Shown here piece by piece: positions 8,172 through 30,467 of a DNA stretch of 64,000 nt. Position 1 is the first letter of the stretch. Every line of letters begins with the position of its first letter. The DNA lies in contig NZ_JASXSZ010000001.1 of assembly GCF_030315975.1 (NCBI RefSeq), forward strand, positions 1,054,001 to 1,118,000. The letters run 5' to 3'. The notes beneath the pieces were generated by a model. It was not told the origin of the DNA and ran no database searches. It was given only the letters and a program-made list of their open reading frames with translations. A program made the position numbers and the translations under genes. Source of the DNA: Microbacterium candidum (GTDB taxonomy: Bacteria; Actinomycetota; Actinomycetes; Actinomycetales; Microbacteriaceae).

Positions 8172-8185
8172 CGCCGTCTCCTCCC

Positions 8186-11244: not shown

Positions 11245-12181
11245 ATGCCGCAACCGCTCGACATCCGAGTTCCCGACTTGAACGGCAGGCGCGCGCTCGT
11301 CACGGGTGCGAGCGACGGTGTCGGCTTCGAGATTGCGGCACGTCCCGCGCGGGCCGGCGCGGCCATCGTCGTGCCCGTGCGCGATGAGGCGAAGGGGAAG
11401 CTGCCGCCGAGCGGATCCGTGCGCGTACACCCCGTGCGCGCATCCAGGTCCTTCCGCTGGACCTCGCGTCGCTCGAGTCGGTCGCCGCGTTCGCCGACAC
11501 GCTGCTGCGGGACGGCAGCACGATCGACATCCTGATCGCGAACGCGGGGGTGATGAACCCGCCCAGTCGACAGCTCACCGTCGATGGGAACGAGCTGTAG
11601 TTCGCGACCAACCATCTCGGGCACTTCGCGCTCATCGCGCAGTCCTGCCGCTCCTGAAGGCAGGTCTCGAGCGCATTACGAGCCAGGTGAGCATCGCCGC
11701 CGATCAAGGAGCGATGAGGTGGGACGACCTCGCTTGGGCGCATGGGTACGACCCGATGAAGGCATACAGCTCGTCGAAGATCGCATTCGGATTGTTCGCA
11801 ATGGAGCTGCAACGGCGATCGGATGCGGCGGGCTGGCGGCTGCGGAGCAACCTGTCGCACCCCGGCATCGTGCAGACGAATCTTCTCGCCGCGCAACCGG
11901 GAATGGGGCGCCCGAAAGACACCACGGTGGTGAAGGCGATCCGATGGATGTCGGCACGCGGCCTCCTCGTCGGCACGCCGTCGTCCGCGGCGCTGCCAGC
12001 CGTGTACGCGGCGACGGACCCGGACGCGCGCGGCGGTCGGCTGTATGGGCCGAGGGGGTTTCGGCACCTGGGCGGGCTGCCGGCGGAGCAGCCGCTGTAC
12101 ACGCGACTACAGAGCGAGCGCGACGCGGTCCGAGTGTGGGACATCTCCGAACAGCTCACCGGCATCCGCTTCAGGGCATGA
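11245..12181 (+). pseudogene. Decayed short-chain dehydrogenase/reductase
   Basis: Pieces of one SDR protein lie in successive frames. The first frame gives LNGRRALVTGASDGVGFEI, the cofactor-binding glycine motif. After a frame change come LPLDLASLESVAAFA and IANAGVMNPPSRQLTVDGN, and then an in-frame TAG at 11598-11600 where the family has Gln (ELQFATNHLGHFAL). A further one-base change near 11650 returns to a frame encoding LPLLKAG, AYSSSKIAFGLFAMELQRR (active-site Tyr/Lys) and a complete C-terminus. At least two frameshifts and one nonsense codon make it non-functional unless the sequence is wrong. The adjacent regulator-like gene is also broken. Confidence 0.8.
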
Positions 12182-12249
12182 GCCGACAGGCGTCACGGAC
12201 GAATCCGCGATGCCTGGCTGAAAGCCGACGTCTGCCCGAGACTCGAATC

Positions 12250-13036
12250 ATGGACAGAGCGCCTCTCGCCGACTTCCTCCGGCGTCGCCGAGAGGCATTG
12301 CAGCCGGAGGACGTGGGTCTTCGGCGCGGCCCGCGGCGCCGCACGTCGGGCTTACGGCGTGAAGAGGTCGCCGCCCTCTGCGACATGTCGGTCCACTACT
12401 ACAGTCGACTCGAGCAGGCCCGCGGTCCGCGGCCTTCCGGGCAGATGCTCGCCGCGATCGCCCGCGGCATGCGACTCACCCTCGACGAACGCGACCACCT
12501 GTTTCGCCTCGCGAGTCACACGGCACCCGCACGAGCCCTGCGCGGCGAGCACGTGTCACCCGGTCTGATGCGCGTACTAGACGCCGGCTGCACGGGCACC
12601 GTTCGGGGACGAGACCCGATTCGTCGGCCCCATGCGAAGCATCGGCTACCGCTGGTTCATGGACCCCGCAACCCGCGATGTGTATCCACCCGAGGACCAT
12701 GCGGCGCTGTCGCGGGCCTTCACCGCCGACATCCGCTCCGCGTACGCGAAGCATCCTGCACACTCTCGCGCTGGCGCCATCGTCGATGCCCTTCTCGCGG
12801 AGAGCGCGGAGTTCGCGGCGCTGTGGGAGTCGCACGAGGTGACGTCTACGCACTCGCGCGAGAAGGGGCTGCAGCACCCCGAGGTCGGCGTGATGGACAT
12901 GCATTGCCAACTCCTGGTCGATCCTGAACAGGGACAGACCCTTCTCGTGCTCACCGCGACCCCGGGCACCGAAAGCTACGAGCGTCTGCGACTGCTCGCC
13001 GTCATCGGGACCCAGGAGATCTCACCCGCCCAGTGA
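12250..13036 (+). pseudogene. Decayed XRE-family (MmyB-like) regulator
   Basis: The first ~110 codons encode a typical XRE helix-turn-helix with RRTSGLRREEVAALCDMS and YYSRLEQARG, followed by the start of the MmyB-like ligand domain (HVSPGLMRVLD). Coding then switches frame near 12580-12620 and resumes as ETRFVGPMRSIGYRW through a complete C-terminus. Compared with the family, about 25-30 residues are missing at the junction, so a deletion together with a frameshift is likely. Genes of this type often sit next to an SDR gene and control it; here both are damaged, suggesting loss of the whole function. Confidence 0.75.
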
Positions 13037-13162
13037 ACCGGCGGGAGCGACTGCTTCGCGCCCCGACGGTGTCCCTGGACATTCACGCAACCACGCTTGC
13101 CTGACCGCACGAACCGGCCGGTGAATGCAGCGGTAGGGGCTCGGGGGAATGTGCGCCGTGTC

Positions 13163-13216
13163 TTGACATGACACCAAAATGAATCTAGATTCATTTCAAA
13201 TGAACACAGATTCATT
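13163..13216 (+). promoter_or_regulatory. TetR promoter with two tandem palindromic operators
   Basis: TTGACA at 13163-13168 and TAGATT at 13186-13191, 17 bp apart, make a strong sigma-70-type promoter. A perfect 20-bp palindrome (13177-13196, core AATGAATCTAGATTCATT) covers the -10 box. A second copy, AATGAACACAGATTCATT at 13199-13216, has the same AATGAA/TTCATT arms. The dyad centres are 21 bp apart, two helical turns. Occupancy would block the promoter, so autorepression by the TetR protein and control of the operon by an acyl-CoA is the natural reading (inference). Confidence 0.75.
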
Positions 13217-13231
13217 ATTTGGGGGCTTGAG

Positions 13232-13924
13232 ATGACGGATGCCCAGGTAGCGGAGGCGATGAGGACCGCTCGGGCGGCTCGCGCCGATCTGCGTACACGG
13301 CAGGTGCTGCGGGCCGCGGCCCGGCTGATGGGCCGCGAAGGCGCCGACGCGGTCTCGATGCAGGCCATCGCGGATGAAGCCGGCGTCAGCGTGGGGCTGA
13401 TCTACAAGTACTTCGGTAACAAGCAGGATCTGGTTCTCGCGATCACCGTCCAGGTGCTCGACGACGTCGCCATGAGCGTTCCCGCGGCCGTCGACCGAGC
13501 GGGAGACGATGCTGTGCTCGCCCTCGCGGCCGGATTCCGTGCCTACTGCGAGACGATCGACGAGCACAGGCACGCGGCGGTCCTCACTTACCGGGAGTCG
13601 AAGACGCTCGGCGCCGACGGCCAGAGCGAGCTGAAGCGACGCGAGGTCGCGACGATGAAGCCGCTCGTGGGCGCCGTGCGTCGCGGCATCGACGCCGGCC
13701 TGTTCACCGCGGTGGACGCGGAACTCATGACTTATGACCTGGTGATGCTCGCCCACGCGTGGGCGCTCAAGCACTGGTACTTCGAGCGATCCTTCGATCT
13801 CGAGGCATATGTCACCCATCAGACCGCGATCGTTCTCGGGGGCCTCATCGTCCCCGAGCGCCGAGCGGACTATCCGGCGCTGCTCCGCCCGTCAGCGGCG
13901 CCTCACACCACAGGAGGACGATGA
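13232..13924 (+). CDS. TetR-family transcriptional repressor of the alicyclic acid operon
   Basis: A 230-residue TetR protein. The N-terminal helix-turn-helix spans about residues 20-65 (RQVLRAAARLMGREG, SMQAIADEAGVSVGLIYKYFGNKQ). The C-terminal domain resembles acyl-CoA-responsive TetR regulators of fatty and aromatic acid operons, but it is not diagnostic. The gene is the first of an apparent eleven-gene operon and its promoter carries two tandem palindromes, so it likely represses itself and everything downstream. Its stop overlaps the next start by one base (TGATG). The inducer would plausibly be a CoA thioester of the pathway. Confidence 0.88.
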   Translation: MTDAQVAEAMRTARAARADLRTRQVLRAAARLMGREGADAVSMQAIADEAGVSVGLIYKYFGNKQDLVLAITVQVLDDVAMSVPAAVDRAGDDAVLALAAGFRAYCETIDEHRHAAVLTYRESKTLGADGQSELKRREVATMKPLVGAVRRGIDAGLFTAVDAELMTYDLVMLAHAWALKHWYFERSFDLEAYVTHQTAIVLGGLIVPERRADYPALLRPSAAPHTTGGR

Positions 13925-14721
13925 TGACCGACTACGAAGACATCACCTATGAGATCGCGGACCACGCCGCGATCATCACGATCAATCGGCCTGAACGCTA
14001 CAACGCGTTCCGCGCCCGGACCGTCGAGGAGATGATCAAGGCGTTCCGATCCGCGTGGTCGGACCCGCAGGTGCGGGGGGTCATCCTCACGGGTGCAGGG
14101 GACAGGGCGTTCTGCAGCGGCGGTGATGTCAAGCAGCGTGCGGAGACCGGCGACTACGGTCCGAGCGAGTCGGGCATGTTCGAGATCGGCAACCTACACA
14201 AGACGATTCGCGACATCCCCAAGCCGGTCATCGCGGCTGTCAATGGCGTCGCGGTCGGCGGGGGCCATGTGCTGCATGTGCTGTGCGACCTGTCGATCGC
14301 CTCCGAGACCGCGCGCTTCGGCCAGTCCGGCCCGAAGGTGGGCTCGTTCGACGCCGGGTTCGGGTCGGCGTACCTCGCCCGCATCGTCGGCGAGAAGCGC
14401 GCGCGGGAGATCTGGTACCTGTGCCGTCAGTACGACGCACAGACTGCCGAGCGCTGGGGGTTGGTCAACGCGGTGGTGGCCCCCGAACGACTCCTCGACG
14501 AAGCGAAGGCGTGGATCGCCGAGATCGCCGAGAAGAGCCCGACCGCGATCCGCATGCTGAAGCAGTCGTTCAACGCCGACACCGACCACCAGGCCGGTCT
14601 CAGCAACATGGCGATGACCGCGCTCGACTTGTTCACCTCGTCGCCGGAGGGCGCGGAGGGCGCCGCCGCGTTCGCCGAGAAGCGCGCCCCCGAGTTCGAC
14701 AGCTACGTGGCCTGGCACTGA
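13924..14721 (+). CDS. badI: 2-ketocyclohexanecarboxyl-CoA hydrolase-like crotonase (BadI-type)
   Basis: A 265-residue crotonase-fold enzyme resembling Rhodopseudomonas BadI and the MenB group rather than simple enoyl-CoA hydratases. Key stretches are INRPERYNAF, AGDRAFCSGGD (oxyanion loop), AVGGGHVL, FGQSGPKVGSFDAGFGSAYL, and GEKRAREIWYLCRQY, all characteristic of ring-cleaving or ring-closing members. BadI hydrolyses 2-ketocyclohexanecarboxyl-CoA to pimeloyl-CoA. ATG 13924 has AGGAGG six bases upstream; the ATG at 13921 is too close. BadH-, AliA-, AliB- and BadK-like genes in the same operon support this role. Confidence 0.8.
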   Translation: MTDYEDITYEIADHAAIITINRPERYNAFRARTVEEMIKAFRSAWSDPQVRGVILTGAGDRAFCSGGDVKQRAETGDYGPSESGMFEIGNLHKTIRDIPKPVIAAVNGVAVGGGHVLHVLCDLSIASETARFGQSGPKVGSFDAGFGSAYLARIVGEKRAREIWYLCRQYDAQTAERWGLVNAVVAPERLLDEAKAWIAEIAEKSPTAIRMLKQSFNADTDHQAGLSNMAMTALDLFTSSPEGAEGAAAFAEKRAPEFDSYVAWH

Positions 14722-14722
14722 C

Positions 14723-15874
14723 ATGGACTTCGCCCTCGACGCCGACCAGCGCGACTGGCAGGCCAAGGCCCGCGCCTTCGCCGACGCCGAGCTCGCTCCG
14801 CGCTATCAGCAGCGCGAGCGGGACGGCCGCATCGAGCCTGAGATCATCGCCCGCATGGGCGAGCTCGGCTTCATCGCCCCCGAGCTTCCGTCGCGCTACG
14901 GCGGGCGGGATGCGCCGCGCCTGCTGAGCGGTCTCATCACGGAGCAGATCAGCCGCGGCGACTTCAACGTCGCGTACGTGCAGGTGGTCGCCTCCCTCGT
15001 CGGCCAGGTCATCGCGCGAAACGGCACGGACGCCGTCAAGGACGAGTGGCTTCCGCGCATGATCGCCGGCACGTCGATCGTCGGCATCGGGCTGTCCGAG
15101 CCCCACGGCGGATCGGATGCCGGCAACCCGCACCTCTCCGCGCGTCGCGAGCGCGGCGGCTGGGTCCTCAACGGCACGAAGTCGATGTCGTTCAACCGCG
15201 TCGCCGACGGAGTGATCGTCTTCGCGAAGACGGATCCGCACGAGCGCAAGCGCGGCCGCGGGATCAGCGCGTTCTTCGTGCCGTTCGCAGCCGAGGGGGT
15301 GACCCGCGACCCGGTGGGCGACCTCGGGACGATCGCCGTCGGGCGCGGGTTCGTGCACTTCGCGGACACCTGGATCCCGGAGGAGAACCTCCTCGGGGAC
15401 GAGGGCAAGGGCTTCACGCAGGTGATGCAGGGCTTCGACTTCAGCCGCGCGCTCATCGCGCTGCAGTGTCTCGCGGTCGCCGAGGTCACCGTCGAGGAGA
15501 CGTGGGAGTACACGAGCAGACGGGATGCGTTCGACAAGCCCCTGAGCACCTACCAGGGGGTCGCCTTCCCGCTCGCGGAGGCGATGACGAAGATCGAGGC
15601 TGCCAAGCAGCTCAGCTACAAGACGCTGTGGCTGAAGGACAACGACCTGCCGCACACGAGCGAGGCGGCCATGGTCAAGTGGTGGGCCCCGCGGGTGTCC
15701 GTGGAGACCCTTCACGAGTGCCTGCTGCTGCACGGCCAGTACGGCTACAAGACCGACCGGCCCATCGGCCAGCGCCTGCGCGACGTCATGGGTCTCGAGA
15801 TCGGCGACGGCACGGCCCAGATCATGAAGCTCATCATCGCCCGGCAGGCCGTCGGGCGGGAGTTCGCGCCGTGA
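14723..15874 (+). CDS. aliB: Cyclohexanecarboxyl-CoA dehydrogenase-like acyl-CoA dehydrogenase (AliB-type)
   Basis: A 383-residue FAD acyl-CoA dehydrogenase with the usual N-terminal helical, middle beta (GIGLSEPHGGSDA) and C-terminal helical domains. At the position where most family members have a catalytic Glu in YEGT, this protein has Asp362 in LEIGDGTAQIMK. An Asp base and this local sequence fit alicyclic acyl-CoA dehydrogenases of the AliB group, which introduce the 1,2 double bond of the cyclohexane ring. Start is the ATG two bases after the preceding stop. Electrons would pass to ETF, whose genes are not in this window. Confidence 0.75.
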   Translation: MDFALDADQRDWQAKARAFADAELAPRYQQRERDGRIEPEIIARMGELGFIAPELPSRYGGRDAPRLLSGLITEQISRGDFNVAYVQVVASLVGQVIARNGTDAVKDEWLPRMIAGTSIVGIGLSEPHGGSDAGNPHLSARRERGGWVLNGTKSMSFNRVADGVIVFAKTDPHERKRGRGISAFFVPFAAEGVTRDPVGDLGTIAVGRGFVHFADTWIPEENLLGDEGKGFTQVMQGFDFSRALIALQCLAVAEVTVEETWEYTSRRDAFDKPLSTYQGVAFPLAEAMTKIEAAKQLSYKTLWLKDNDLPHTSEAAMVKWWAPRVSVETLHECLLLHGQYGYKTDRPIGQRLRDVMGLEIGDGTAQIMKLIIARQAVGREFAP

Positions 15875-15900
15875 GCGGCGCCGAGGAAGGGAGTAGGCGC

Positions 15901-16647
15901 ATGGGAGCGCTGGAAGGAAAGATCGTCATCGTCACCGGGGCCGCGAGCGGCATCGGCAAGGGGATCGCGACGCGACTCGCCGCCGACGGGGCCGGCGTCG
16001 TCGTGAGCGACATCAACGAGGAGGCGGCCGTCGCGACGGCGGCGGAACTGGGCGGCGGAGCCCTCGGCATCCGCACCGACGTCACCGACCGGGCGAGCGT
16101 GGATGCGGCGGTGGCCGCTGTGCTCGAGAAGTTCGGCACGGTCGACGTCCTGGTCAACAACGCCGGGTGGGACAAGGTCGAGCCGTTCATGACGAGCAAG
16201 GTCCCAGACTGGGACCGCGTCATCGCGATCAACCTGTACGGCACCCTCCACATGTCGCAGGCCGTCCTGCCGATCCTCAAGGAGAAGGGCGCGGGCGCCA
16301 TCGTCAACATCGGATCGGATGCCGGCCGTGTCGGCTCGTCGGGCGAGGCGGTGTACTCGGCCGCGAAGGGCGGGATCATCGCGTTCTCGAAGACGCTCGC
16401 CCGCGAGGTCGCCCGCTACGGCATCCGCGTCAACACCGTCTGCCCCGGCCCCGCGGACACCCCGCTGTTCGCCGGGATCAGCGAGGAGAACCCGAACCTG
16501 CGCACCGCGCTGGAGAAGGCCATCCCGATGCGGCGGCTCGCCCAGCCGTCCGACCTCGCCAACGCCGTGGCGTTCTTCGCCGCGGACTCCTCCGCCTACG
16601 TGACCGGCCAGACGCTGTCGGTCAGCGGCGGACTCACCATGAGCTGA
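15901..16647 (+). CDS. badH: 2-hydroxycyclohexanecarboxyl-CoA dehydrogenase-like SDR (BadH-type)
   Basis: A 248-residue classical SDR: TGAASGIGKG NAD(P)-binding motif (12-21), NNAGWD, catalytic Ser in IGSDAGRVGSSGEAVYSAAKGG together with Tyr and Lys, and a C-terminal GQTLSVSGGLTMS. The combination NNAGWD, SDA-x-RVGSSGEAVY and VSGGLTM matches Rhodopseudomonas BadH as I recall it. BadH oxidises 2-hydroxycyclohexanecarboxyl-CoA to the 2-keto ester, the substrate of BadI encoded two genes upstream. The ATG follows a GAAGGGAGTAGG purine stretch. Generic 3-oxoacyl reductase (FabG-like) activity is the alternative. Confidence 0.78.
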   Translation: MGALEGKIVIVTGAASGIGKGIATRLAADGAGVVVSDINEEAAVATAAELGGGALGIRTDVTDRASVDAAVAAVLEKFGTVDVLVNNAGWDKVEPFMTSKVPDWDRVIAINLYGTLHMSQAVLPILKEKGAGAIVNIGSDAGRVGSSGEAVYSAAKGGIIAFSKTLAREVARYGIRVNTVCPGPADTPLFAGISEENPNLRTALEKAIPMRRLAQPSDLANAVAFFAADSSAYVTGQTLSVSGGLTMS

Positions 16648-16691
16648 ACACAGCACGCACGCACTCAACGACGAGTGGAAGGAACCCCGTC

Positions 16692-18377
16692 ATGCCCTTC
16701 GACACGCTTCTCACCGACGAGAAGATCGAGCAGTTCACCCGCAGCGGCGGATGGAAGAACACCGTCCTGACCGACTACCTGGATGCCGCGGCCGACGCGC
16801 ACCCCGATCAGACCGCCATCGTCGACGCGCGCGGCAGCATCACGTATCGCGAGTTCCGCGAGCAGGTGGACCGCGCGGCCCTCGGATACCTCGAGCTCGG
16901 CATCGTCCCCGGCGACACGATCTCGATCCAGCTGCCGAACTGGCGCGAGTGGCTCATCGCCCACTACGCCGCGGTGCGGATCGGGGCGGTGACCAATCCC
17001 CTCATCCCGATCTACCGGGACAACGAGGTCGGCTACATGATGCAGGCGGCGCAGACGAAGCTGCTCGTCACGACCGGCGACTTCCGCGGATTCGACTACG
17101 TCGCGATGGCGGGGCGCCTGCGCTCCGGCATCCCGTCGCTCGAGCACGTGCTGGTCGTGCGCCCCACCGCCGAACTGCCCGACTGGGCGCAGAGCTGGGA
17201 CGACTTCGCCGCGACGCCGTGGGAGGAGCGCCGCGACCCGGCGCAGCTGGCGGGCCTGCGACCCGACCCCAACGAGCTGGTGCTGCTCATCTTCACCTCG
17301 GGCACGACCGGCCGCCCGAAGGGCGTGATGCACACGCACAACACGCTCATCGCGGGGTCGATGCCTTGGCCGGACCGGCTCGGCATGGACCACACCGCCG
17401 TCGTGCACATGGCGTCGACCTTCGGGCACCTCACCGGGTACCTGTACGGTGTGTCGCTTCCGACGATCCTCGGCGGGACGGGCGTCTTCCAGGACGTGTG
17501 GAACGTCGACGAGTTCCTCGCACTCGTCGACGAGCACGGCATCCAGCACACCTCCGGCGCCACGCCGTTCCTGCACGACCTCATCAACGCGCCCGGCCTC
17601 GCCGTCCGCGACCTGTCGTCGCTGCGGCGATTCTGCTGCATGGGGGCGCCGATCCCCGGCGTGTTCCTGACCGAGGCGGCCGAGCGCATCCCCGGCATGA
17701 CCGTGTTCGGCGGATGGGGGCAGACGGAGTGCTGCCTCGTCACGATGGGCCACCCCGACGACCTGCGCGAGAAGATCGCCGCGACCGACGGCAAGGCACT
17801 CCCGGGCATGGAGGTGCGAGTCCTCACCGCCGACGGCGCTTTGTCGCCTGTGGGCGAGGAGGGCCGACTGCAGGTGCGCGGGCCGTTTCTGTTCCAGGGC
17901 TACGTCGGCGACGACCTGCAGACCGCGCGCGACCTCATCGACGAGGACGGCTGGTTCGACACGGGCGACATCGCGACAATGGATGCCGAAGGCTACATCC
18001 GGCTGCAGGGCCGGACGAAGGACGTCATCATCCGGGGCGGCGAGAACATCCCGGTCGCGTACGTGGAGAACATCCTCTACGGGCACCCGTGGATCGACAC
18101 TGTCGCCGTCGTCGCCCTGCCGCACCCGCGCCTCCAGGAGATCGCGTGCGCGGTCGTCACGATCAACCCCGGCTCGCCGATCTTCACCCTCGAGGATCTC
18201 CGCGCGTACTTCGCCGAGAAGGGCGTCGCGAAGCCGTACTGGCCGGAGCAGGTCGTCGTGGTGGAGAGCCTGCCGCGAACACCGAGCGGCAAGATCCAGA
18301 AGTTCCAGCTGCGCGCGCAGCTCGAAGGCACCGTCACCGTGACGGACACGGTGCGACAGGTGGGGGCATCCGCATGA
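16692..18377 (+). CDS. aliA: Cyclohexanecarboxylate-CoA ligase-like acyl-CoA synthetase (AliA-type)
   Basis: A 561-residue ANL-superfamily adenylate-forming ligase. AMP-binding core A3 is LIFTSGTTGRPKGVMHTH, A5 is GGWGQTECC, A7 is WFDTGDIATMD, A8 is GRTKDVIIRGGENI, and the A10 lysine lies in PRTPSGKIQKFQLR. It would activate a free carboxylic acid to its CoA ester with ATP, the entry step of the pathway. Homology to AliA is inferred from its company (AliB, BadH, BadI, BadK types); by itself the protein could be a medium-chain or cyclic acyl-CoA synthetase. GGAAGGAA lies eight bases before the ATG. Confidence 0.75.
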   Translation: MPFDTLLTDEKIEQFTRSGGWKNTVLTDYLDAAADAHPDQTAIVDARGSITYREFREQVDRAALGYLELGIVPGDTISIQLPNWREWLIAHYAAVRIGAVTNPLIPIYRDNEVGYMMQAAQTKLLVTTGDFRGFDYVAMAGRLRSGIPSLEHVLVVRPTAELPDWAQSWDDFAATPWEERRDPAQLAGLRPDPNELVLLIFTSGTTGRPKGVMHTHNTLIAGSMPWPDRLGMDHTAVVHMASTFGHLTGYLYGVSLPTILGGTGVFQDVWNVDEFLALVDEHGIQHTSGATPFLHDLINAPGLAVRDLSSLRRFCCMGAPIPGVFLTEAAERIPGMTVFGGWGQTECCLVTMGHPDDLREKIAATDGKALPGMEVRVLTADGALSPVGEEGRLQVRGPFLFQGYVGDDLQTARDLIDEDGWFDTGDIATMDAEGYIRLQGRTKDVIIRGGENIPVAYVENILYGHPWIDTVAVVALPHPRLQEIACAVVTINPGSPIFTLEDLRAYFAEKGVAKPYWPEQVVVVESLPRTPSGKIQKFQLRAQLEGTVTVTDTVRQVGASA

Positions 18378-19558
18378 CCGTCGCCGACATCGACGAGCTG
18401 CGCGGGCGATCCGACGTCCTCGGCATCGACGCGCTGCTCAGCGCCGAGGAGCGCGCGACGCGCGACCGCGTGCGCGCGTTCGTCGACGAGCACATCCGCC
18501 CGAACATAGCTGACTGGTTCGCGAGCGCGCATTTCCCGGTCGAGATCTCGCGCGAATTCGGCAGGCTCGGTGTGCTCGGCATGCACCTGAAGGGGTACGG
18601 ATGCCCCGGTCGCAGCGCCGTCGAGTACGGGCTCGCCGCCCTGGAGCTGGAGGCGGGGGACTCGGGTCTTCGCACCTTCGTCTCGGTGCAGGGCTCGCTC
18701 GCGATGAGCTCGATCCACCGCTGGGGGAGCGAGGAGCAGAAGCAGCAGTGGCTGCCCGGCATGGCGGCGGGCGAGATCATCGGCAGCTTCGGGCTGACCG
18801 AGCCGACCGCAGGCTCCGACCCGTCGAGCATGAAGACGTACGCGCGGCGCGACGGCGACGACTGGATCCTCACCGGCGCGAAGCGGTGGATCGGCCTCGC
18901 GCCGATCGCGCAGCTGACGGTCGTGTGGGCGCAGACGGATGACGGCATCCGCGGATTCATCGTCCCAACCGACTCGCCCGGGTACGAGGCGATCACCCTC
19001 GAGCCGAAGCTGTCGATGCGCGCGTCGATCCAGGCGGAGCTGCACTTCGACGACATCCGCCTGCCCGCATCCGCGATGCTGCCGGGGGCTAAGGGTCTTC
19101 GCGGCCCGTTCTCTGCCCTCAACGAGGCCCGCTACGGCATCATCTGGGGCGTGCTGGGCGCCGCGCGCGACAGCTATGAGGCGGCGCTTCGCTACAGCCT
19201 CGAGCGCACGCAGTTCGATAAGCCGATCGCGGGCTTCCAGCTCACGCAGCAGAAGCTCGTGGACATGGTGCTCGAGATCCAGAAGGGCGCGCTGCTGGCC
19301 CTCCACACCGGACGCCTGAAGGATGCCGGCACGCTCGACCCGGTGCAGATCTCGGTCGGCAAGCTCAACAACACGCGCGAGGCCATCAAGATCGCGCGTG
19401 AGGCGCGCACGATCCTCGGGGGCAACGGCGTGCTGATCGAGCACTCGCCGATCCGGCACGCCGCCAACCTCGAGTCCGTGCGCACCTACGAGGGCACCGA
19501 CGAGGTGCACACGCTCATCCTCGGCCAGCACCTGACCGGCATCGGAGCCTTCCGGTGA
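18374..19558 (+). CDS. gcdH: Glutaryl-CoA dehydrogenase-like enzyme with substrate-carboxylate Arg
   Basis: A 394-residue flavoprotein of the glutaryl-CoA dehydrogenase branch: GYGCPG, SGLRTFVSVQGSL, SFGLTEPTAGSDPSSM, a KLSMRASI segment, NEARYGI and YEGTDEVHTLILGQ with the catalytic Glu. Arg100 aligns with the Arg that in human GCDH (Arg94) binds the distal carboxylate, so a dicarboxylyl-CoA such as glutaryl-CoA or pimeloyl-CoA is a reasonable substrate. The ATG at 18374 overlaps the AliA stop (ATGA). In this operon it would oxidise the ring-opened pimeloyl-CoA, or decarboxylate glutaryl-CoA at the end of the route. Which of these cannot be decided here. Confidence 0.8.
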   Translation: MTVADIDELRGRSDVLGIDALLSAEERATRDRVRAFVDEHIRPNIADWFASAHFPVEISREFGRLGVLGMHLKGYGCPGRSAVEYGLAALELEAGDSGLRTFVSVQGSLAMSSIHRWGSEEQKQQWLPGMAAGEIIGSFGLTEPTAGSDPSSMKTYARRDGDDWILTGAKRWIGLAPIAQLTVVWAQTDDGIRGFIVPTDSPGYEAITLEPKLSMRASIQAELHFDDIRLPASAMLPGAKGLRGPFSALNEARYGIIWGVLGAARDSYEAALRYSLERTQFDKPIAGFQLTQQKLVDMVLEIQKGALLALHTGRLKDAGTLDPVQISVGKLNNTREAIKIAREARTILGGNGVLIEHSPIRHAANLESVRTYEGTDEVHTLILGQHLTGIGAFR

Positions 19559-20325
19559 GCGCCGTCGAGACCGAGGTCCAGGGCCGGCTGGGCATCGTCA
19601 CGCTCAACCGGCCGGAGGCCCTGAACGCGCTCAACTACGCGGTGTGGGACGGCATCCAGTCCGCCCTCGACGCGTTCCGCGACGACCCGGCCGTCGGCGT
19701 CGTCGTCTTCACCGGCGCGGGCGAGAAGGCCTTCGCCGCGGGCGCCGACATCGCGCAGCTCACGAATTACACCGTCGTCGACGGGCTCAACGCACGGCTC
19801 CAGAAGCTCTTCGACGCCGTCGAGGCATACGACAAGCCGACGATCGCCGCGGTCAACGGGTTCGCGCTCGGCGGCGGCAACGAGCTGGCGTTGGCGTGCG
19901 ACATCCGCATCGCGACGGAGAGCGCGAAGTTCGGGCTCCCCGAGCCGAACCTCGGCGTGCTGCCCGGCGCGGGCGGCACGCAGCGGCTCTCGCGCCTCAT
20001 CGGCAAGGGCCGCGCGATCGAGCTGATCCTTACGGGTCGCTTCGTCGGAGCGGAGGAGGCGCTGCGCGTCGGGCTCGTCACCGAGGTCGTGCCGCAGGGC
20101 GAGCAGCTCGCCGCGGCGCAGCGCATCGCCGACGCGATCCTCACGAAGGGACCACTCGCCGTGCGGCTCGCGAAGCTCGTTGTGTCGAACGGCTTCGAGA
20201 CCGATCAGCGGACGGGCCTGCTGCTGGAGCGGCTGGCGCAGGCGCTGCTGTACGGCACGGCGGACAAGGTCGAGGGCACTCAGGCGTTCATCGACAAGCG
20301 GCCGGCGCAGTTCCGGGGGGCGTGA
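19555..20325 (+). CDS. badK: Enoyl-CoA hydratase (BadK/crotonase type)
   Basis: A 256-residue crotonase-fold hydratase. Oxyanion-hole segments are KAFAAGADIAQL and FALGGGNELALACDIRIA; the two catalytic glutamates are likely in GGGNELALA and GLPEPNLGVLPGAGGTQRL. It would hydrate cyclohex-1-enecarboxyl-CoA to the 2-hydroxy ester, the role of BadK, or 2-enoyl-CoA intermediates of the later beta-oxidation. The GTG start overlaps the preceding stop (GTGA). The intact Glu pair distinguishes it from the BadI-like crotonase at the start of the operon. Confidence 0.8.
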   Translation: MSAVETEVQGRLGIVTLNRPEALNALNYAVWDGIQSALDAFRDDPAVGVVVFTGAGEKAFAAGADIAQLTNYTVVDGLNARLQKLFDAVEAYDKPTIAAVNGFALGGGNELALACDIRIATESAKFGLPEPNLGVLPGAGGTQRLSRLIGKGRAIELILTGRFVGAEEALRVGLVTEVVPQGEQLAAAQRIADAILTKGPLAVRLAKLVVSNGFETDQRTGLLLERLAQALLYGTADKVEGTQAFIDKRPAQFRGA

Positions 20326-20326
20326 C

Positions 20327-21187
20327 ATGGTGGAGCGGATCCTCGTGGTCGGCGCGGGCGCGATGGGCTCGCAGATCGGCATGGTCGCGGCTCTCGCCGG
20401 CATCGACACGACGGTGCAGGACGTCTCCGCCGAGCAGCTCCCGCGCGCCGAGGCGCAGCTGCGGGACCGCCTCGCGGGACAGGTCGCGAAGGGACGCCGC
20501 ACGCAGGAGGACGTGGATGCCGCGTTCGCGCGGCTGCGATTCACGACCGAGCTGGAGACCGCGGCGGCCGCGGCCGACTACGTCATCGAGGCGGCCATCG
20601 AGCGGATCGACATCAAGCGCGAGCTGTTCGCACGGCTCGGCGCTGCGGCCCCGGCGCACGCGATCCTCGCGACGAACTCGTCGACGATCCCGTCCTCGGA
20701 GCTCGCCGACGCGTCCGGGCGCGCGGATCGGGTGTGCAATCTGCACTTCTTCATGCCGCCGCTGGTCATGCGGGCCGTCGAGGTCGTGCGCGGCCCGGAG
20801 ACGAGCGACGCCACGGTGGCGACGACCACCGCACTCGCGGAGCGGCTCGGGAAGACCCCGGTCGTGCTGAACCGGGAAATCCCCGGGTTCGTCGCGAACC
20901 GGCTGCTGTGGGCCATCCGCGAGGAGGCGCTGCGCATGTACGGCGACGGCATCGCGAGTTACCAGGACATCGACGCCGCCGCGCGAGAGGCGCTCGGGCA
21001 CCCGATGGGGCCGTTCGAGCTCATGGATCTCGTCGGCAATGACGTTGCATACCGCAACAAGATCGCGGTGTACGAACAGACCGGCGACGAGGCCGAGCTG
21101 CCGCACCCCGCGCTCGTCGCGTTGTACGAGAAGGGCGACTACGGCCGCAAGACAGGCAAGGGATGGTACGACTATGACTCTCGATGA
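20327..21187 (+). CDS. 3-hydroxyacyl-CoA dehydrogenase
   Basis: A 286-residue L-3-hydroxyacyl-CoA dehydrogenase (HBDH/FadB2 type). The Rossmann motif VVGAGAMGSQIG is at residues 7-18, followed by TNSSTIPSSEL, NLHFFMPP with the catalytic His, VLNREIPGFVANRLL, and the C-terminal domain with HPMGPFELMDLVGND and GRKTGKGWYDY. It oxidises an open-chain 3-hydroxyacyl-CoA with NAD. The ATG is two bases after the hydratase stop, and the 3' end overlaps the next gene by 14 bp. In the operon it serves beta-oxidation after ring cleavage. Confidence 0.88.
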   Translation: MVERILVVGAGAMGSQIGMVAALAGIDTTVQDVSAEQLPRAEAQLRDRLAGQVAKGRRTQEDVDAAFARLRFTTELETAAAAADYVIEAAIERIDIKRELFARLGAAAPAHAILATNSSTIPSSELADASGRADRVCNLHFFMPPLVMRAVEVVRGPETSDATVATTTALAERLGKTPVVLNREIPGFVANRLLWAIREEALRMYGDGIASYQDIDAAAREALGHPMGPFELMDLVGNDVAYRNKIAVYEQTGDEAELPHPALVALYEKGDYGRKTGKGWYDYDSR

Positions 21188-22403
21188 TCCGTTCGTCGCC
21201 GCCCTCGCCGAGGGAATCGCCGACGCGCGCGACACCGACTTCTTCCGGCTCGACGACCGGCTCGGCCCCGCCGAACTCGCGCTCCGGGCGAAGGTGCGCG
21301 GGTTCGTCGAGGACAGCGTGCTGCCGGTCATCAACCACTACTGGGAGCGCGCGGAGTTCCCGTTCGAGGTCCTTCCCGCGTTCGCGGAGCTGGGGGTCGT
21401 CGGGTCGCAGATCGAGGGCTACGGCTGCCCCGGGCTCACGCCGCTGCAGGCCGGCATCGTGACCACCGAGCTCGCGCGCGGCGACGGCTCCCTCAACACG
21501 TTCATGGGCGTCCAGTCGAACCTCACGATGGGCACGATCGCCCTCCTCGGCAGCGAGGAGCAGAAGCAGCGCTGGCTGCCGCGGATGGCGGCACTCGAGC
21601 TCATCGGCGCCTTCGCGCTGACCGAGGCGGCGCACGGATCCGACTCGGTGGGCCTCGAGACCACGGCGCGCCGCGAAGGCGACGAATGGGTGTTGCAAGG
21701 CTCCAAGCGCTGGATCGGCAACGCGAGCTACGCGCACGTCGTCGTCATCTGGGCGCGGGACGAGGCCGACGGCAAGGTGAAGGCGTTCGTGATGCACCGC
21801 GAGCCCGACGAGGGCTTCCCCGCGGGGTACGACGCGCAGGTGATCACCGGCAAGATCGGCAAGCGCGCCATCCTGCAGCCGGACATCCGCATCGACGGGC
21901 TGCGCATCCCCGAATCCGACCGCCTGCCCGGCGCGAACTCGTTCCGTGACGCGGGCCGCGTGCTCGAGCGCACACGCGGCGGGGCGTCGTGGGAGTCGCT
22001 CGGCCACGCCCTCGCCGCCTTCGAGATCGCCGCCGCCTACGCGTCGCGGCGGGAGCAGTTCGGCGGACCGATCGCCCGGTTCCAGCTCGTGCAGTCGACG
22101 CTGGCGCAGATGGTGGCGGAGCTGTCCGCCATCCAGCTGATGTGCCACCGCATGGCGGAGCTGCAGGCCGAGGGGACGTGGACCGGCACGATGGCCTCGA
22201 TCACGAAGCTCGCCACCGCCGACAAGGCCCGCCGCATCTGCCAGCAGGCGCGCGACCTCCTCGGCGGCAACGGGCTGCTCCTCGACTTCCATGTGGCGCG
22301 TCACCTGACCGACATGGAGGTCGTGCACACCTACGAGGGCACGGCGCAGATCCAGGAACTGCTCATCGGGCGCGCCATCACGGGCCTCTCGGCGTTCTCC
22401 TGA
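21174..22403 (+). CDS. Second glutaryl-CoA-dehydrogenase-like acyl-CoA dehydrogenase, lacking the Arg
   Basis: A 409-residue flavoprotein close in layout to GCDH: IEGYGCPG, GSEEQKQRWLP, AFALTEAAHGSDS, KRWIGN, and the catalytic Glu in HTYEGTAQIQELLIG. Where GCDH and the paralogue at 18374 have SG-x-R, this protein reads GSLNTF, with Asn108 in place of the carboxylate-binding Arg. It therefore probably does not act on a dicarboxylyl-CoA in the GCDH manner; a neutral acyl-CoA is more likely. The start overlaps the preceding gene and a GGGATGG inside that gene may serve as ribosome binding site. Its exact place in the pathway is open. Confidence 0.8.
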   Translation: MTLDDPFVAALAEGIADARDTDFFRLDDRLGPAELALRAKVRGFVEDSVLPVINHYWERAEFPFEVLPAFAELGVVGSQIEGYGCPGLTPLQAGIVTTELARGDGSLNTFMGVQSNLTMGTIALLGSEEQKQRWLPRMAALELIGAFALTEAAHGSDSVGLETTARREGDEWVLQGSKRWIGNASYAHVVVIWARDEADGKVKAFVMHREPDEGFPAGYDAQVITGKIGKRAILQPDIRIDGLRIPESDRLPGANSFRDAGRVLERTRGGASWESLGHALAAFEIAAAYASRREQFGGPIARFQLVQSTLAQMVAELSAIQLMCHRMAELQAEGTWTGTMASITKLATADKARRICQQARDLLGGNGLLLDFHVARHLTDMEVVHTYEGTAQIQELLIGRAITGLSAFS

Positions 22404-22421
22404 AGACGGAAGAAGGATGAC

Positions 22422-23618
22422 ATGACCGACGTGTATCTCGTGGGCGGCGTCCGCACCCCGGTGGGCCGCTACGGCGGCGCGCTGAGCGGCGTGCGTCCGG
22501 ACGACCTGGCCGCCCTCGTCGTGGGCGAGGCCGTGCGGCGGGCGGGCGTGGAGGCCGCGCACATCGACGAGGTGATCCTCGGCAACGCCAACGGCGCGGG
22601 CGAGGAGAACCGCAACGTCGCCCGCATGGCGCTCCTCCTCGCGGGGCTGCCGGACTCCGTGCCCGGCTACACCGTAAACCGGCTGTGCGCCTCCGGGCTG
22701 ACAGCGATCGCGAACGCCGCGCAGGCGGTGCGGGCGGGGGAAGCGGATGTCGTCGTCGCCGGCGGCGTCGAGTCGATGACCCGTGCGCCGTGGGTGACCG
22801 CCAAGCCCGACCGGGCGTGGGGCAAGCCCGGCGAGGCGTTCGACACGTCGCTCGGCTGGCGGTTCGTGAACCCGGTGTTCGCGGCCCAGGAGGGGACGAC
22901 CTTCTCGATGCCCGAGACGGCGGAGCAGGTCGCGCGGCGCGACCGGATCTCCCGGGAGGATGCCGACGACTTCGCCCTGCGCTCGCAGCGCCGCGCGATC
23001 GCCGCCATCGACGGCGGCCGCTTCGTCGACGAGATCGTCCCCGTGCCGGTGCCGTCGCGCGGCGAGCCGCGCATCGTCGACGTCGACGAGGGGCCGCGAC
23101 GGGAGACCTCCGCGGAGGTGCTCGCCGCCCTGCGCCCCGTCGTGCGCGGCGGGTCGGTGGTGACCGCGGGCAACTCCAGCACGCTCAACGACGGCGCGTC
23201 CGCGGTTGTCGTCGCCTCGGCGGACGCGGTCCGCCGGTACGGGCTCGTGCCGCGCGCGCGCATCGTCGGGGCGGCTTCGGCCGGCGTGCCGCCGCAGATC
23301 ATGGGCGTCGGGCCGGTCCCGGCGACCGAGAAGCTCCTCGCCCGCGCGGGCGTGTCGCTCGGCGACATCGGCGCGATCGAGCTCAACGAGGCCTTCGCAG
23401 CCCAATCCCTGGCCGTCATCCGCCGTCTCGGACTCGACGAGGCACGGACGAACGCGGACGGCGGCGCGATCGCGCTGGGTCATCCGCTGGGATCTAGCGG
23501 CGCCCGGATCGTCGTGACGCTCCTCGGCCGGATGGAGCGCGAGGATGCGGCGCTCGGCCTCGCGACGCTCTGCGTCGGCGTGGGCCAGGGCGTCTCGATG
23601 CTGATCGAGACGGTCTGA
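22422..23618 (+). CDS. Acetyl-CoA acyltransferase (beta-ketothiolase)
   Basis: A 398-residue thiolase. The nucleophilic Cys89 lies in VNRLCASGL, GGVESMTRAPW is present, and the C-terminal active site has NEAFAAQSLAV, GHPLGSSGAR and CVGVGQG with the second Cys. It is close to PcaF/PaaJ-type 3-oxoadipyl-CoA thiolases, which act on dicarboxylyl-CoA substrates, in keeping with 3-oxopimeloyl-CoA here. GAAGAAGGA stands before the ATG. It closes the beta-oxidation part of the operon. Confidence 0.9.
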   Translation: MTDVYLVGGVRTPVGRYGGALSGVRPDDLAALVVGEAVRRAGVEAAHIDEVILGNANGAGEENRNVARMALLLAGLPDSVPGYTVNRLCASGLTAIANAAQAVRAGEADVVVAGGVESMTRAPWVTAKPDRAWGKPGEAFDTSLGWRFVNPVFAAQEGTTFSMPETAEQVARRDRISREDADDFALRSQRRAIAAIDGGRFVDEIVPVPVPSRGEPRIVDVDEGPRRETSAEVLAALRPVVRGGSVVTAGNSSTLNDGASAVVVASADAVRRYGLVPRARIVGAASAGVPPQIMGVGPVPATEKLLARAGVSLGDIGAIELNEAFAAQSLAVIRRLGLDEARTNADGGAIALGHPLGSSGARIVVTLLGRMEREDAALGLATLCVGVGQGVSMLIETV

Positions 23619-23619
23619 C

Positions 23620-24591
23620 ATGCGGGCCGTGCGCGCGGTCTCCCAGGACTACGACGAGCCGCTGAGCGGTCTGCGCCTGGAGGACGTCCCGGAGCCGATT
23701 CCGCCTGCGGGGTGGACGATGGTGCGGGTCGCCGCGGCGGCCCTCAACCCGCACGACGTGTGGACGCTGCGCGGCGTCGGGCACCCCGCGGAGCGCATCC
23801 CGATCACGCTCGGCTGCGATGCCGCCGGCTGGGACGAGGCCGGGAACCCCGTCGTCATCTACCCGACCCTCGGCGATCCGGATGCCGGGTTCGGCGACAT
23901 CACGTTCGACCCTGCGCGGGGCCTCCTGTCGGAGACCGTGGACGGGACCCTCGCCGAGAAGGTGGCCGTCCCTCGCGGGCATCTGGCGCCCAAGCCCGAG
24001 TTCCTGTCGTTCGAGGAGGCGGCGGCCCTGCCCGTCACCTTCGGGACCGCGTATCGCATGCTGTTCACGCGCGGACGCCTCGTGCCGGGACAGCGCGTTC
24101 TCGTCCAGGGCGCCGCAGGCGGCGTCTCCAGCGCGGCGATCCTCCTCGCGCGGGCGGCCGGCGCGGAGGTCTACGCGACGAGCAGGACCGAGGCGGGCCG
24201 CGCGTTCGCCGCGTCGCTCGGTGCGATCGCCCTCGAGACGGGGGCGCGGCTGCCCGAGCTCGTCGATCTGGTTATCGAGACAGTGGGGGAAGCGACCTGG
24301 GCCCACTCGCTGCGCGTCCTGCGCCGTGGGGGCGCGGTGGTCATCGCCGGCGCCACCAGTGGGGCGATGCCCTCGGCAGATCTGGCCCGCGTGTTCTTCA
24401 ACCAGCTCTCGGTCGTCGGCTCCACCGGCTGCACGTTCGACGAGTTCACCCGGATGCTGCGGTTCGTGACGACGCACGGCATCCGTCCCCCGGTCGCCGA
24501 GGTCATCGGCATCGACGAGGCGCCGCGCGGGTTTTCACGGCTCATCGAGGGCGGAGTGATGGGCAAGATCGTCGTCCGGATCGCTTCCTGA
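23620..24591 (+). CDS. Zinc-free MDR oxidoreductase (quinone oxidoreductase-like)
   Basis: A 323-residue medium-chain dehydrogenase/reductase. It has the GroES-like N-terminal fold (AAALNPHDVWTLRG) and a nucleotide-binding VQGAAGGVSSAAI with a following strand that turns at TSRTEAG. The structural-zinc cysteine cluster is absent, as in quinone oxidoreductases and enoyl reductases. The start lies one base after the thiolase stop, so it belongs to the operon. It may reduce an enoyl-CoA or quinone; its job in the pathway is not obvious from sequence. Confidence 0.82.
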   Translation: MRAVRAVSQDYDEPLSGLRLEDVPEPIPPAGWTMVRVAAAALNPHDVWTLRGVGHPAERIPITLGCDAAGWDEAGNPVVIYPTLGDPDAGFGDITFDPARGLLSETVDGTLAEKVAVPRGHLAPKPEFLSFEEAAALPVTFGTAYRMLFTRGRLVPGQRVLVQGAAGGVSSAAILLARAAGAEVYATSRTEAGRAFAASLGAIALETGARLPELVDLVIETVGEATWAHSLRVLRRGGAVVIAGATSGAMPSADLARVFFNQLSVVGSTGCTFDEFTRMLRFVTTHGIRPPVAEVIGIDEAPRGFSRLIEGGVMGKIVVRIAS

Positions 24592-24861
24592 CGTCGACAG
24601 GTCCCCCGATCAAACACGGACGGCGAAGCCACGCGAAGGGATGGAAAGCCCCTGGATGCAGGCTGAGCGGACGCGGTGATGCCGGCGGCCGCACCGACAT
24701 CTGACGATCGACCGGCCATACGAGCAGCACATCCACGCGGGGCGCCGACGTCGTCGCGCAGCAACGACGGGCCGATCCTCGGGGCGCCGCTCATGTCTAC
24801 TCCGATCGACGGTACGCATCACGGTGGAGTTCAAATGAAATCTCTGTTGGAACACGACTTA
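24592..24861. other. Intergenic region without recognisable gene
   Basis: About 270 bp after the end of the alicyclic-acid operon and before the aminotransferase promoter. No protein domain, strong hairpin or RNA gene was recognised. AT content rises towards the right end where the promoter lies. Confidence 0.5.
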
Positions 24862-24890
24862 TTGAACGTAAAGTTGTAGGCGTTCATACT
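24862..24890 (+). promoter_or_regulatory. Promoter of aminotransferase gene with inverted repeat TGAACG-N12-CGTTCA
   Basis: TTGAAC (24862-24867) and CATACT (24885-24890), 17 bp apart, form a likely promoter 25 bp before the start codon. The arms TGAACG (24863-24868) and CGTTCA (24881-24886) are perfectly complementary and cover both hexamers, so a regulator bound there would block transcription. The Lrp-type protein encoded just downstream is a candidate, by proximity only. Confidence 0.5.
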
Positions 24891-24914
24891 TCACGTTCGA
24901 ACTCAGGGGGTTCC

Positions 24915-26066
24915 ATGGCGAAGACGACCGTCGCGGCATCAGCGGCGACCTCGGCACGCTCCGGCGGCTCCGGCATCCGGGAGATCATGGAGCTCGCGAT
25001 GGGGCGCGAGGACATCGCGCGCTTGGAGGTCGGGGAACCGGATTCCCCCTGTGCGATGCACATCGCGGAGGCCGGTGTGAGGGCCTGCATCGCCCCGGTC
25101 GGCTACGTCCAGGGGGCAGGCGTCCCCGAACTGCGGGTCGCGATCGCGAAGTCCCTCACCCGCCGGTATGGCAGCGAGGTCGACCCCGCTCGCATCATCG
25201 TCACGCACGGCGCAGCCCAGGGCATCGCGCTGGCGTTCTCTCTGCTGTTGCGGGCGGGCGACTCGATCCTCGTGCCCGACCCTGCGTGGCCGAACTACGT
25301 CAACGTCGCGCGCGAGCTCGGCGCACGTCCGCTCGCGTACTCGCTGCGCGCAGAGAACGGCTGGCTGCCGGACGTCGATACCCTGTTCGCGCTCGCCGAC
25401 GACCGCACGCGCGTGCTGGTCCTGAACTCTCCGGGGAACCCCACCGGCGCGGTGATGCCGCGAGCGCTCGTCGCCGAGATCGTCGCCCGCGCGCGTTCGC
25501 GCGGAATCATGGTCGTATCCGACGAGGTATACGACGAGCTGATCTACGAGGGCAGATCTGCGGGGGCCGCCTTCCTCGAACCGGATGCGGTGATCGCAGC
25601 GTTCAGCTTCTCCAAGACCTACGCGATGACGGGGTGGCGTGTCGGCTATCTGCTGGTGCCGCCCGAGATGTCGACGCGCTTCGCCTACGCGCAGGAGGCG
25701 ACCACGTCCTGTCTCTCGCCAATCGTGCAAGTGGGTGCGCTCTCGGCACTCGAGGGGCCACAGGGCGCCGTGTCGGAGATGCGCGACGAGTACCGCGCGC
25801 GTCGTGACCTCCTGGTCGCGCAACTGGATGCAGCCGGGATCCGAATCGAACCGCCCGCCGGCGCGTTCTATGCGCTCCTTCCCGTCCCGGGTGGGCGGGA
25901 CGCGCGCGACGCGGCTCTGGAACTGATCGATCACGGCGTGGCGATGGCACCGGGCACCGCGTTCGGCGCGGTCGCGGCCGACCGGCTGCGCGTCTCGCTC
26001 GCGAGCAGCCGGGAGACCCTGCGCATCGGCCTTGAGCGGTATCTCGCCTGGTACGGCGCGAAGTGA
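24915..26066 (+). CDS. Class I/II PLP aminotransferase
   Basis: A 383-residue fold-type I aminotransferase of the aspartate aminotransferase subgroup. Visible are GYVQGAGVPELR, NSPGNPTGAV (with the substrate-carboxylate region), SDEVYDEL, the PLP lysine K234 in SFSKTYAMTGWRVGY, and a C-terminal RVSLASSRETLRIG with the second Arg. It moves an amino group between an amino acid and a 2-oxo acid. An AGGGGG precedes the ATG. The gene is followed by an Lrp/AsnC regulator, a frequent pairing for amino-acid catabolism. The amino acid substrate cannot be named. Confidence 0.88.
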   Translation: MAKTTVAASAATSARSGGSGIREIMELAMGREDIARLEVGEPDSPCAMHIAEAGVRACIAPVGYVQGAGVPELRVAIAKSLTRRYGSEVDPARIIVTHGAAQGIALAFSLLLRAGDSILVPDPAWPNYVNVARELGARPLAYSLRAENGWLPDVDTLFALADDRTRVLVLNSPGNPTGAVMPRALVAEIVARARSRGIMVVSDEVYDELIYEGRSAGAAFLEPDAVIAAFSFSKTYAMTGWRVGYLLVPPEMSTRFAYAQEATTSCLSPIVQVGALSALEGPQGAVSEMRDEYRARRDLLVAQLDAAGIRIEPPAGAFYALLPVPGGRDARDAALELIDHGVAMAPGTAFGAVAADRLRVSLASSRETLRIGLERYLAWYGAK

Positions 26067-26119
26067 GTCCGCCGGGTCGCGGCTACACTGACCGCGGGCA
26101 GAGCGCCCGAGGAGGCGAA

Positions 26120-26677: not shown

Positions 26678-26733
26678 CCCAGCCCTCCAGAAACATTACA
26701 AACGCGTCGGATCAAACATTCGACACCATACAG

Positions 26734-26776
26734 ATACAAAGTATTTTTGACGTTCCTCTTCCATTCGAGAAGGATT
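26734..26776 (+). promoter_or_regulatory. AT-rich promoter region of second ABC operon with dyad ATAC-AAA-GTAT
   Basis: The hyphenated palindrome ATACAAAGTAT lies at 26734-26744, directly before TTGACG (26747-26752). A weak -10 (AAGGAT or AGGATT, 26770-26776) follows at 17-18 bp. The long leader then runs to the ATG at 26873. The local AT content is much higher than in the flanking genes. Regulator unknown. Confidence 0.4.
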
Positions 26777-26872
26777 TGGGCCAAGCTGGGACAGTTGTGA
26801 CGCACGACGACGTGCGATGCAGCATCAGCATCTGCTGACTGTCCTGTTCCATCTCCCGAACCTAGGAACGCC

Positions 26873-27907: not shown

Positions 27908-27912
27908 GTTCC

Positions 27913-30434: not shown

Positions 30435-30467
30435 CATCCGCTCACCCCAACCACGACAGGAGAAACT

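Follow-up and report, generated by a model that had tools for sequence, protein, structure and literature searches.

Does the gene run at positions 13232 to 24591 of a 64,000-nucleotide stretch of the Microbacterium candidum genome (contig NZ_JASXSZ010000001.1, positions 1,054,001 to 1,118,000; hereafter the window, whose numbering we use throughout) encode the degradation of an alicyclic acid? An initial annotation had read it as an apparently complete cyclohexanecarboxyl-CoA degradation operon. Phylogeny, active-site residues, scores and synteny support this for AliB, BadH, AliA and the overall pathway, but not for the BadI that it took to be of the classical kind. Our own reading, to which we give a probability of roughly 70%, is that the run would break down cyclohexanecarboxylate, or an alicyclic acid closely related to it, via CoA thioesters to acetyl-CoA, as deduced from the families of its products.

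The run comprises 11 genes on the + strand, several of which overlap, with a widest stop-to-start gap of 44 nt, and the first gene downstream begins 323 nt on; they likely form one operon and would be transcribed together. All the genes that had been described in one run with a TetR gene are present, and so are the motifs quoted for them. The G+C content is 67–75% in the open reading frames (ORFs) of the operon and 62–73% in the remaining ORFs of the window, some of which are over-long. The order tetR-badI-aliB-badH-aliA-acd1-badK-had-acd2 recurs in Tersicoccus (locus L019), in Citricoccus (L020) and in locus L122, and is therefore not due to chance. The thiolase and MDR genes that follow acd2 in the window were not found in these three gene runs; in their place there is an SDR gene in L019 and L122, plus a gene for a MaoC protein in L019.

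Comparisons with NCBIfam models gave a consistent best family for three of the signature products. The AliB-type cyclohexanecarboxyl-CoA dehydrogenase (aliB, 14723..15874) is best matched by TIGR03207 (455.5 bits, cut-off 575.35, next family 243.8), the BadH-type 2-hydroxycyclohexanecarboxyl-CoA dehydrogenase (badH, 15901..16647) by TIGR03206 (313.8 bits, cut-off 431.2), which is 64 bits ahead of the next model (249.3), and the AliA-type cyclohexanecarboxylate-CoA ligase (aliA, 16692..18377) by TIGR03208 (514.4 bits, cut-off 792.3), 95 bits ahead of the next (419.8). BadH also passes NF005559, a broad model for an SDR subfamily (249.3 of 215). The initial annotation had named scores under the cut-offs for badI, badH and aliB as grounds to abandon its reading; these three and aliA do all fall below, and the BadI-like protein scores best to MenB models. 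As controls we used the four corresponding proteins from Aromatoleum (L052) and from the Paraburkholderia plasmid pBN3 (L096), and both sets clear all four cut-offs (732.1 and 743.3 bits, respectively, for AliB). The Tersicoccus operon L019, like the window, misses all four (466.0 for AliB), which indicates that the models fail to cover the actinobacterial members tested.

In a tree of 42 rows, the window AliB belongs to an actinobacterial clade of 23 rows (support 100/100), which joins five more rows, four proteobacterial and one from the class of the window (L161), in a clade of 28 (96/97); it thereby groups with AliB of Aromatoleum toluolicum and of other proteobacteria. Five distant rows (L041, L062, L162, L028 and L030) join outside this clade. 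Apart from it stand acd1, acd2, a further five acyl-CoA dehydrogenases from this genome, and the Rhodococcus and Gordonia proteins labelled AliB. The Asp of the IGDGT motif stands where acyl-CoA dehydrogenases have their catalytic Glu. This motif is present in 15 out of 15 AliB rows examined, including the window, and among the rows at hand acd1 and acd2 keep YEGT. AliB is orthologous to proteobacterial AliB; its predicted function is supported by phylogeny, active-site residues and synteny, and the predicted assignments of BadH and AliA are supported by scores and synteny. As had been proposed, NNAGWD and the GGLTM tail are fair marks of BadH: the former occurs in three of four classical BadH rows (NNAGFD in the fourth), the latter in all four, and both in the window. 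For BadH, the ATG at 15901 is a more likely start than the alternative GTG at 15871, because it has a good ribosome site.

Among the genes predicted for the lower pathway, acd1 (18374..19558) finds its best solved structures among those named glutaryl-CoA dehydrogenase (GCDH; 3sf6, 537.7 bits) and keeps the carboxylate-binding Arg of GCDH in its DSGxR motif, presumably equivalent to Arg94 of the human enzyme; both its relatives and this residue place it in GCDH. A second relative, 61% identical, is found elsewhere in the genome (L006). For acd2 (21174..22403), the nearest solved structure is acyl-CoA oxidase 4 (2ix5, 334.5 bits), followed by a putative GCDH (2eba, 298.0), and the position of the GCDH Arg is occupied by Asn, as in L019, L020 and L122. 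Thus, of the two GCDH-like enzymes initially annotated, acd1 keeps that name and acd2 loses it, and we rejected the reading of both as GCDH. From its nearest structure and its Asn, pimeloyl-CoA is the substrate that we infer for acd2, likely a pimeloyl-CoA dehydrogenase.

The enoyl-CoA hydratase (19555..20325, in the role of BadK) exceeded the cut-off of none of the 25 models among the matches listed (best NF004475, 268.6 of 394), and is 62% identical to its counterparts in L019, L020 and L122. For the 3-hydroxyacyl-CoA dehydrogenase (had, 20327..21187; NF006124, 265.5 of 508) this identity is 62–65%. The 3-oxoacyl-CoA thiolase (22422..23618) is nearest to 3-oxoadipyl-CoA thiolases (NF006551, 537.7 of 605; TIGR02430, 535.0 of 597) and passes the broad model TIGR01930 (461.1 of 240.55). 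The last gene encodes an MDR-family (zinc-binding dehydrogenase) reductase (23620..24591; PF00107, 72.7 bits), for which none of 18 NCBIfam models exceeded its cut-off. Homologues of the MDR and BadI-like proteins are listed on equally long contigs (50,647 and, in Leucobacter komagatae, 66,424), and the MDR gene may accordingly recur in such operons.

The BadI-like protein (13921..14721), a predicted ring-opening hydrolase, is the exception to the initial assignment. It scores 329.5 bits with the badI model TIGR03210 (cut-off 467.6) and also falls below the MenB cut-offs (TIGR01929, 333.2 of 342.7; NF005637, 354.1 of 380). With TIGR03210, L052 (520.5) and L096 (546.7) pass, and the proteobacterial L097 (457.0) and L044 (453.3) fall just short. 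In a MenB/BadI tree of 66 rows, obtained from an earlier one of 69 by removal of three long rows (L058–L060), three groups could be told apart: MenB (12 rows, 100/98), classical BadI (6 rows, 98/61) and a third one comprising 39 rows (100/99), with nine rows in no group. The window protein lies in the third group and outside the classical BadI clade; a sister relationship of these two groups was not rejected (p-AU 0.437). The BadI-like protein is therefore a separate lineage of the MenB/BadI family. In the sources, most of its homologues go under the name of naphthoate synthase, dihydroxynaphthoic acid synthetase or enoyl-CoA hydratase, and 3 of the 120 listed carry the name 2-ketocyclohexanecarboxyl-CoA hydrolase.

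The active site tells this lineage apart as well. A Tyr at the position of E. coli MenB Tyr258 is present in all 12 MenB rows and in the five surest classical BadI rows, and in none of the 39 rows of the third group; in the window the position is Thr239. Among the 120 nearest homologues, the window's own included, the residues found there are T (95), A (13), V (6), Y (3) and G (3), and the idea of a universal loss of the tyrosine was dropped on account of the three that keep it. Ser142 and Asp144 (MenB Ser161 and Asp163), the A-loop Tyr79 (MenB Tyr97), Gln135, Gly137 and Trp165 are kept in 120 out of 120. According to the active-site passages of PMC3637252, Tyr97 and the Tyr258 of the facing subunit jointly hold the carboxyl of a substrate analogue in MenB; the third group, which keeps the first and has lost the second, thus retains half of this pair. 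The predicted structure is a crotonase fold closest to MenB, with a C-terminal helix that lies off that of MenB (alignments including it have a root-mean-square deviation of 13–14 Å), so the correspondence of Thr239 and Tyr258 rests on a gap-free sequence alignment. The initial annotation had also taken GPKVGSFDAGFGSAYL as a mark of BadI, which it is not: VGSFD occurs in 11 of 12 MenB rows and in none of five classical BadI rows, all five of which read VGSVDPG together with the Tyr. The window has VGSFDAG and Thr239, and we rejected its VGSFDAGFG stretch as a mark of BadI, the motif being of MenB type. Membership in classical BadI is thus unsupported by phylogeny, active-site residues and synteny.

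The BadI-like protein would likely open 2-ketocyclohexanecarboxyl-CoA, judging from its family. With less assurance, and as a tentative view, we propose that actinobacteria may have a ring-opening hydrolase of their own, a third MenB/BadI branch performing retro-Claisen cleavage without the second active-site tyrosine, which would be joined with AliB and BadH of proteobacterial type in a self-contained acid-to-acetyl-CoA operon under a TetR switch on a twin palindrome.

In the proposed route, AliA would make cyclohexanecarboxyl-CoA, AliB would dehydrogenate it, the single enoyl-CoA hydratase would hydrate the product and BadH would oxidise the resulting alcohol; the BadI-like enzyme would then open the ring of 2-ketocyclohexanecarboxyl-CoA to yield pimeloyl-CoA. 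Dehydrogenation of this by acd2, followed by the hydratase, the 3-hydroxyacyl-CoA dehydrogenase and the thiolase, would give acetyl-CoA and glutaryl-CoA, which acd1 would convert to crotonyl-CoA and CO2 for the same three enzymes to finish, a single enzyme of each of these types serving both the C7 and the C4 stages. A search of the genome with PF06050, which we take to represent the subunits of class I benzoyl-CoA reductase, found no match, E. coli matching as the control and class II benzoyl-CoA reductases not being searched; cyclohexanecarboxylate is therefore more likely the entry substrate than an intermediate of benzoate, and an anaerobic benzoate pathway was rejected within the same limits.

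It is also conceivable, if unlikely, that the operon degrades another alicyclic acid with the same chemistry, such as cyclopentanecarboxylate, an alkyl-substituted naphthenic acid or a terpenoid ring acid, for which the lost tyrosine would make room. The variety of residues at its position fits this, and so does the induction reported in the expression passages of Presentato 2018 (PMC5906575) for ORF1-5 and ORF7 of the chcpca cluster of Rhodococcus aetherivorans BCP1, which is higher on cyclopentanecarboxylate (180–800 fold) than on cyclohexanecarboxylate (ca. 70–290 fold), as well as the link of badKHI clusters to monoterpenes drawn in passages of PMC9795900. However, the best families for AliA and AliB are those of cyclohexanecarboxylate, and the presence of a GCDH agrees with unsubstituted pimeloyl-CoA, from which glutaryl-CoA is formed. 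We consider it very improbable that the BadI-like gene arose by duplication of menB and that the remainder serves ordinary fatty-acid or dicarboxylate beta-oxidation. The protein does share with MenB (DHNA-CoA synthase) its best model, its fold, the equivalents of Ser161, Asp163 and Tyr97 and the VGSFD motif, but it differs from it in its score, clade, Thr239 and gene context; AliB, besides, is no general acyl-CoA dehydrogenase. A true MenB is encoded elsewhere in the genome (402.8 bits, cut-off 342.7), leaving the operon copy free for ring opening, and this gene and the separate clade led us to reject a plain MenB duplicate. Equally improbable is a supply or recycling line, providing pimeloyl-CoA, one of the intermediates, for biotin or clearing cyclohexanecarboxyl-CoA from the cyclohexyl fatty acids that some Microbacteriaceae contain, since an operon with an acyl-CoA ligase, a GCDH and a thiolase seems equipped to degrade a free acid completely, and a BadI-like gene (E 1e-90 or better) present in 1 out of 198 genomes of the genus, a count that, like those below, includes the window's own genome, is ill-suited to housekeeping.

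The degradation of cyclohexanecarboxylate, our preferred reading, also comes with a predicted switch. The first gene, tetR (13232..13924), encodes a TetR-family regulator (PF00440, 65.9 bits), the predicted operon repressor, 49–50% identical to the TetR proteins encoded first in the corresponding gene runs of L019, L020 and L122. Upstream of it lies TTGACA-17-TAGATT (13163..13191, + strand), the sole promoter-like match in 12900–25000 (shuffles average 0.6), and two predicted, unstranded operators of the form RTGAAY-N4-RTTCAY: operator 1 (13179..13194, ATGAATCTAGATTCAT), a perfect palindrome that covers the second, −10-like hexamer, and operator 2 (13200..13215, ATGAACACAGATTCAT), 21 bp from operator 1. 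In the proposed scheme, TetR would repress its own operon by binding both copies, the first over the −10-like box, and its inducer might be cyclohexanecarboxyl-CoA, by analogy with BadR as presented in passages of PMC9795900.

The twin palindrome, with 5 bp between copies, is common to the upstream sequences of these gene runs. The window, Kocuria (L016) and Tersicoccus (L019) have it in perfect form (24 of 24); the score is 23 for both Citricoccus (L020) and Rhodococcus phenolicus (L018), 22 for L122 and 23–24 for all ten of L130–L139, scores of 22–24 being reached by none of 60 first-order random sequences per stretch. It is absent from Gordonia L017 (19), L021 (15), L099 (17) and the third-group loci in other contexts (17 or less). 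L123, L124, L127, L128 and L129 contain tetR-aliB-badH-badK clusters without badI and aliA nearby, and L125 and L126 contain aliB-badH without tetR or badK, again with no badI or aliA nearby; the former five have one good palindrome (11–12 of 12) and no twin, and the latter two have neither. Within the window, the only matches to the single palindrome at one mismatch are the two operator copies, and across the 4.35 Mb genome the twin has no second occurrence when up to 3 mismatches are allowed. With up to 2 mismatches, it was found in 17 of 396 genomes of the order (a backward control matched one), comprising 15 of the 22 with AliB and 2 of the other 374. The seven AliB genomes lacking it are the ones in which neither badI nor aliA lies in the AliB stretch (18.5 kb), and around the twin of the two others we found no relative of thirteen query proteins within the fetched 16–20 kb. 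One perfect twin with no bad-ali gene nearby, at 9707–9743 of L159 (genome G858), belongs to a genus with 13 other sampled genomes that have both, and is perhaps a relic. The twin palindrome, presumably bound by TetR, probably acts as the on/off switch of the operon. No operator for a Gram-positive TetR of this kind was found in the titles and abstract openings of the papers listed, nor in the TetR passages of PMC9795900 and PMC5906575, the word operator being absent from those of the latter.

The initial annotation called the route best known from Rhodopseudomonas palustris; it is not confined there, and clusters with TetR genes have been published for Gram-positives. Passages of Sanz and Diaz 2022 (PMC9795900) describe the proteobacterial bad-ali genes as responsible for cyclohexanecarboxylate degradation, also aerobically, with BadR recognising cyclohexanecarboxyl-CoA and with aab and gcdH beside bad-ali in Gram-negatives, and report bad-ali clusters with a TetR gene in Rhodococcus and Corynebacterium. 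The window shares AliB in kind with the bad-ali genes of R. palustris and of Aromatoleum sp. CIB, which has the aab lower pathway, but has a TetR instead of the MarR-type BadR of Gram-negatives, twin RTGAAY-N4-RTTCAY instead of CAAN4TTG, a BadI of another lineage, scores below the family cut-offs, and upper and lower pathways in one gene run with GCDH. It conforms to the Gram-positive type as outlined in PMC9795900, with ali, bad and TetR genes usually in one direction, and its BadI is about 81–82% identical to that (P0045) of Corynebacterium terpenotabidum, whose actinobacterial bad-ali cluster, like that of C. efficiens, is named in the Fig. 6 legend of that paper. The BCP1 cluster, listed earlier in PMC4591350 and with its BadI homologue annotated as naphthoate synthase in the passages of PMC5906575, is likewise Gram-positive and aerobic, with TetR genes and GCDH. 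Its BadI is of the window's lineage, judged by the Rhodococcus phenolicus cluster L018 (82%), which resembles it by gene order; gene order in these Rhodococcus kin differs from ours, and BCP1 has two TetR genes. The reported induction of the BCP1 cluster by cyclohexanecarboxylate also speaks for our preferred reading. Bad-ali clusters with TetR in Gram-positives are thus already known and the operon is a variant of a published kind, to which it adds a BadI lineage without the tyrosine, an all-in-one gene set and a predicted operator.

The distribution of these genes is patchy. BadI-like proteins (E 1e-90 or better) occur in 3 of 299 genomes of the family, the other two being 63–64% identical and in other contexts, and AliB (E 1e-100 or better) in 22 of 396 genomes of the order and 3 of 345 of the class; this suggests that the operon was acquired by horizontal transfer. 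Among plasmid records, 47 contain AliB relatives, all under 60% identity, and four contain BadI relatives, one of them (80%) adjoining an SDR gene on a Mycobacterium dioxanotrophicus plasmid; no close source for the whole gene run was found in these records. Loci L140 and L141, from the same family as the window, have a BadI relative of 63–64% identity that neighbours genes for a hydratase, SDRs and a thiolase, with an AliB relative (47%) some 6 kb away in L141 and none above 26% in L140; these gene sets possibly serve another ring substrate.

Several observations weigh against cyclohexanecarboxylate degradation as we read it. All four signature proteins score under their cut-offs, and the BadI-like one, without the tyrosine common to MenB and BadI, has a MenB model as its best. 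The BadI of Rhodococcus L018 and Gordonia L017 is 82–83% identical to that of the window, but their AliA and AliB are unrelated (28–30%), this AliB grouping with general acyl-CoA dehydrogenases, so the transfer of function by BadI alone is weaker than it appears. The substrate of acd2 is a guess, and the Arg missing from acd2 is retained by the gene in the AabA position of Aromatoleum L052; the route assigns no role to the MDR gene. As for the switch, single palindromes are not rare (when the window was shuffled 100 times, 8 of the shuffles had at least two at one mismatch), a single genus accounts for 13 of the 15 genomes that have both AliB and the twin, and the twin consensus was derived partly from these loci.

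If correct, cyclohexanecarboxylate degradation by this operon would extend the non-aromatising route to a genus from which it is nearly absent, with standard family models missing the actinobacterial members tested. Should the BadI-like enzyme work as proposed, its family would carry out one and the same ring cleavage with two kinds of active site. The twin palindrome may serve as a simple tag by which similar operons can be recognised in sequences, and may offer a candidate sensor of naphthenic acids.

Elsewhere in the window, the coding sequence of an MmyB-like regulator is spread across two reading frames at 12265–13036, with HTH_31 in the ORF at 11584–12927 and the ligand-binding domain MLTR_LBD in that at 12632–13036, and is either a pseudogene or a sequence error. 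The operon is flanked by similar gene sets (647–10829 and 24915–33099), each with an S-Me-THD-like protein, an ABC transporter ATPase with a Peripla_BP_4 protein and an aminotransferase. Finally, the stretch 56554–62543 encodes a GH113 protein and two cellulase-domain (GH5) proteins, one of them with a CBM2.

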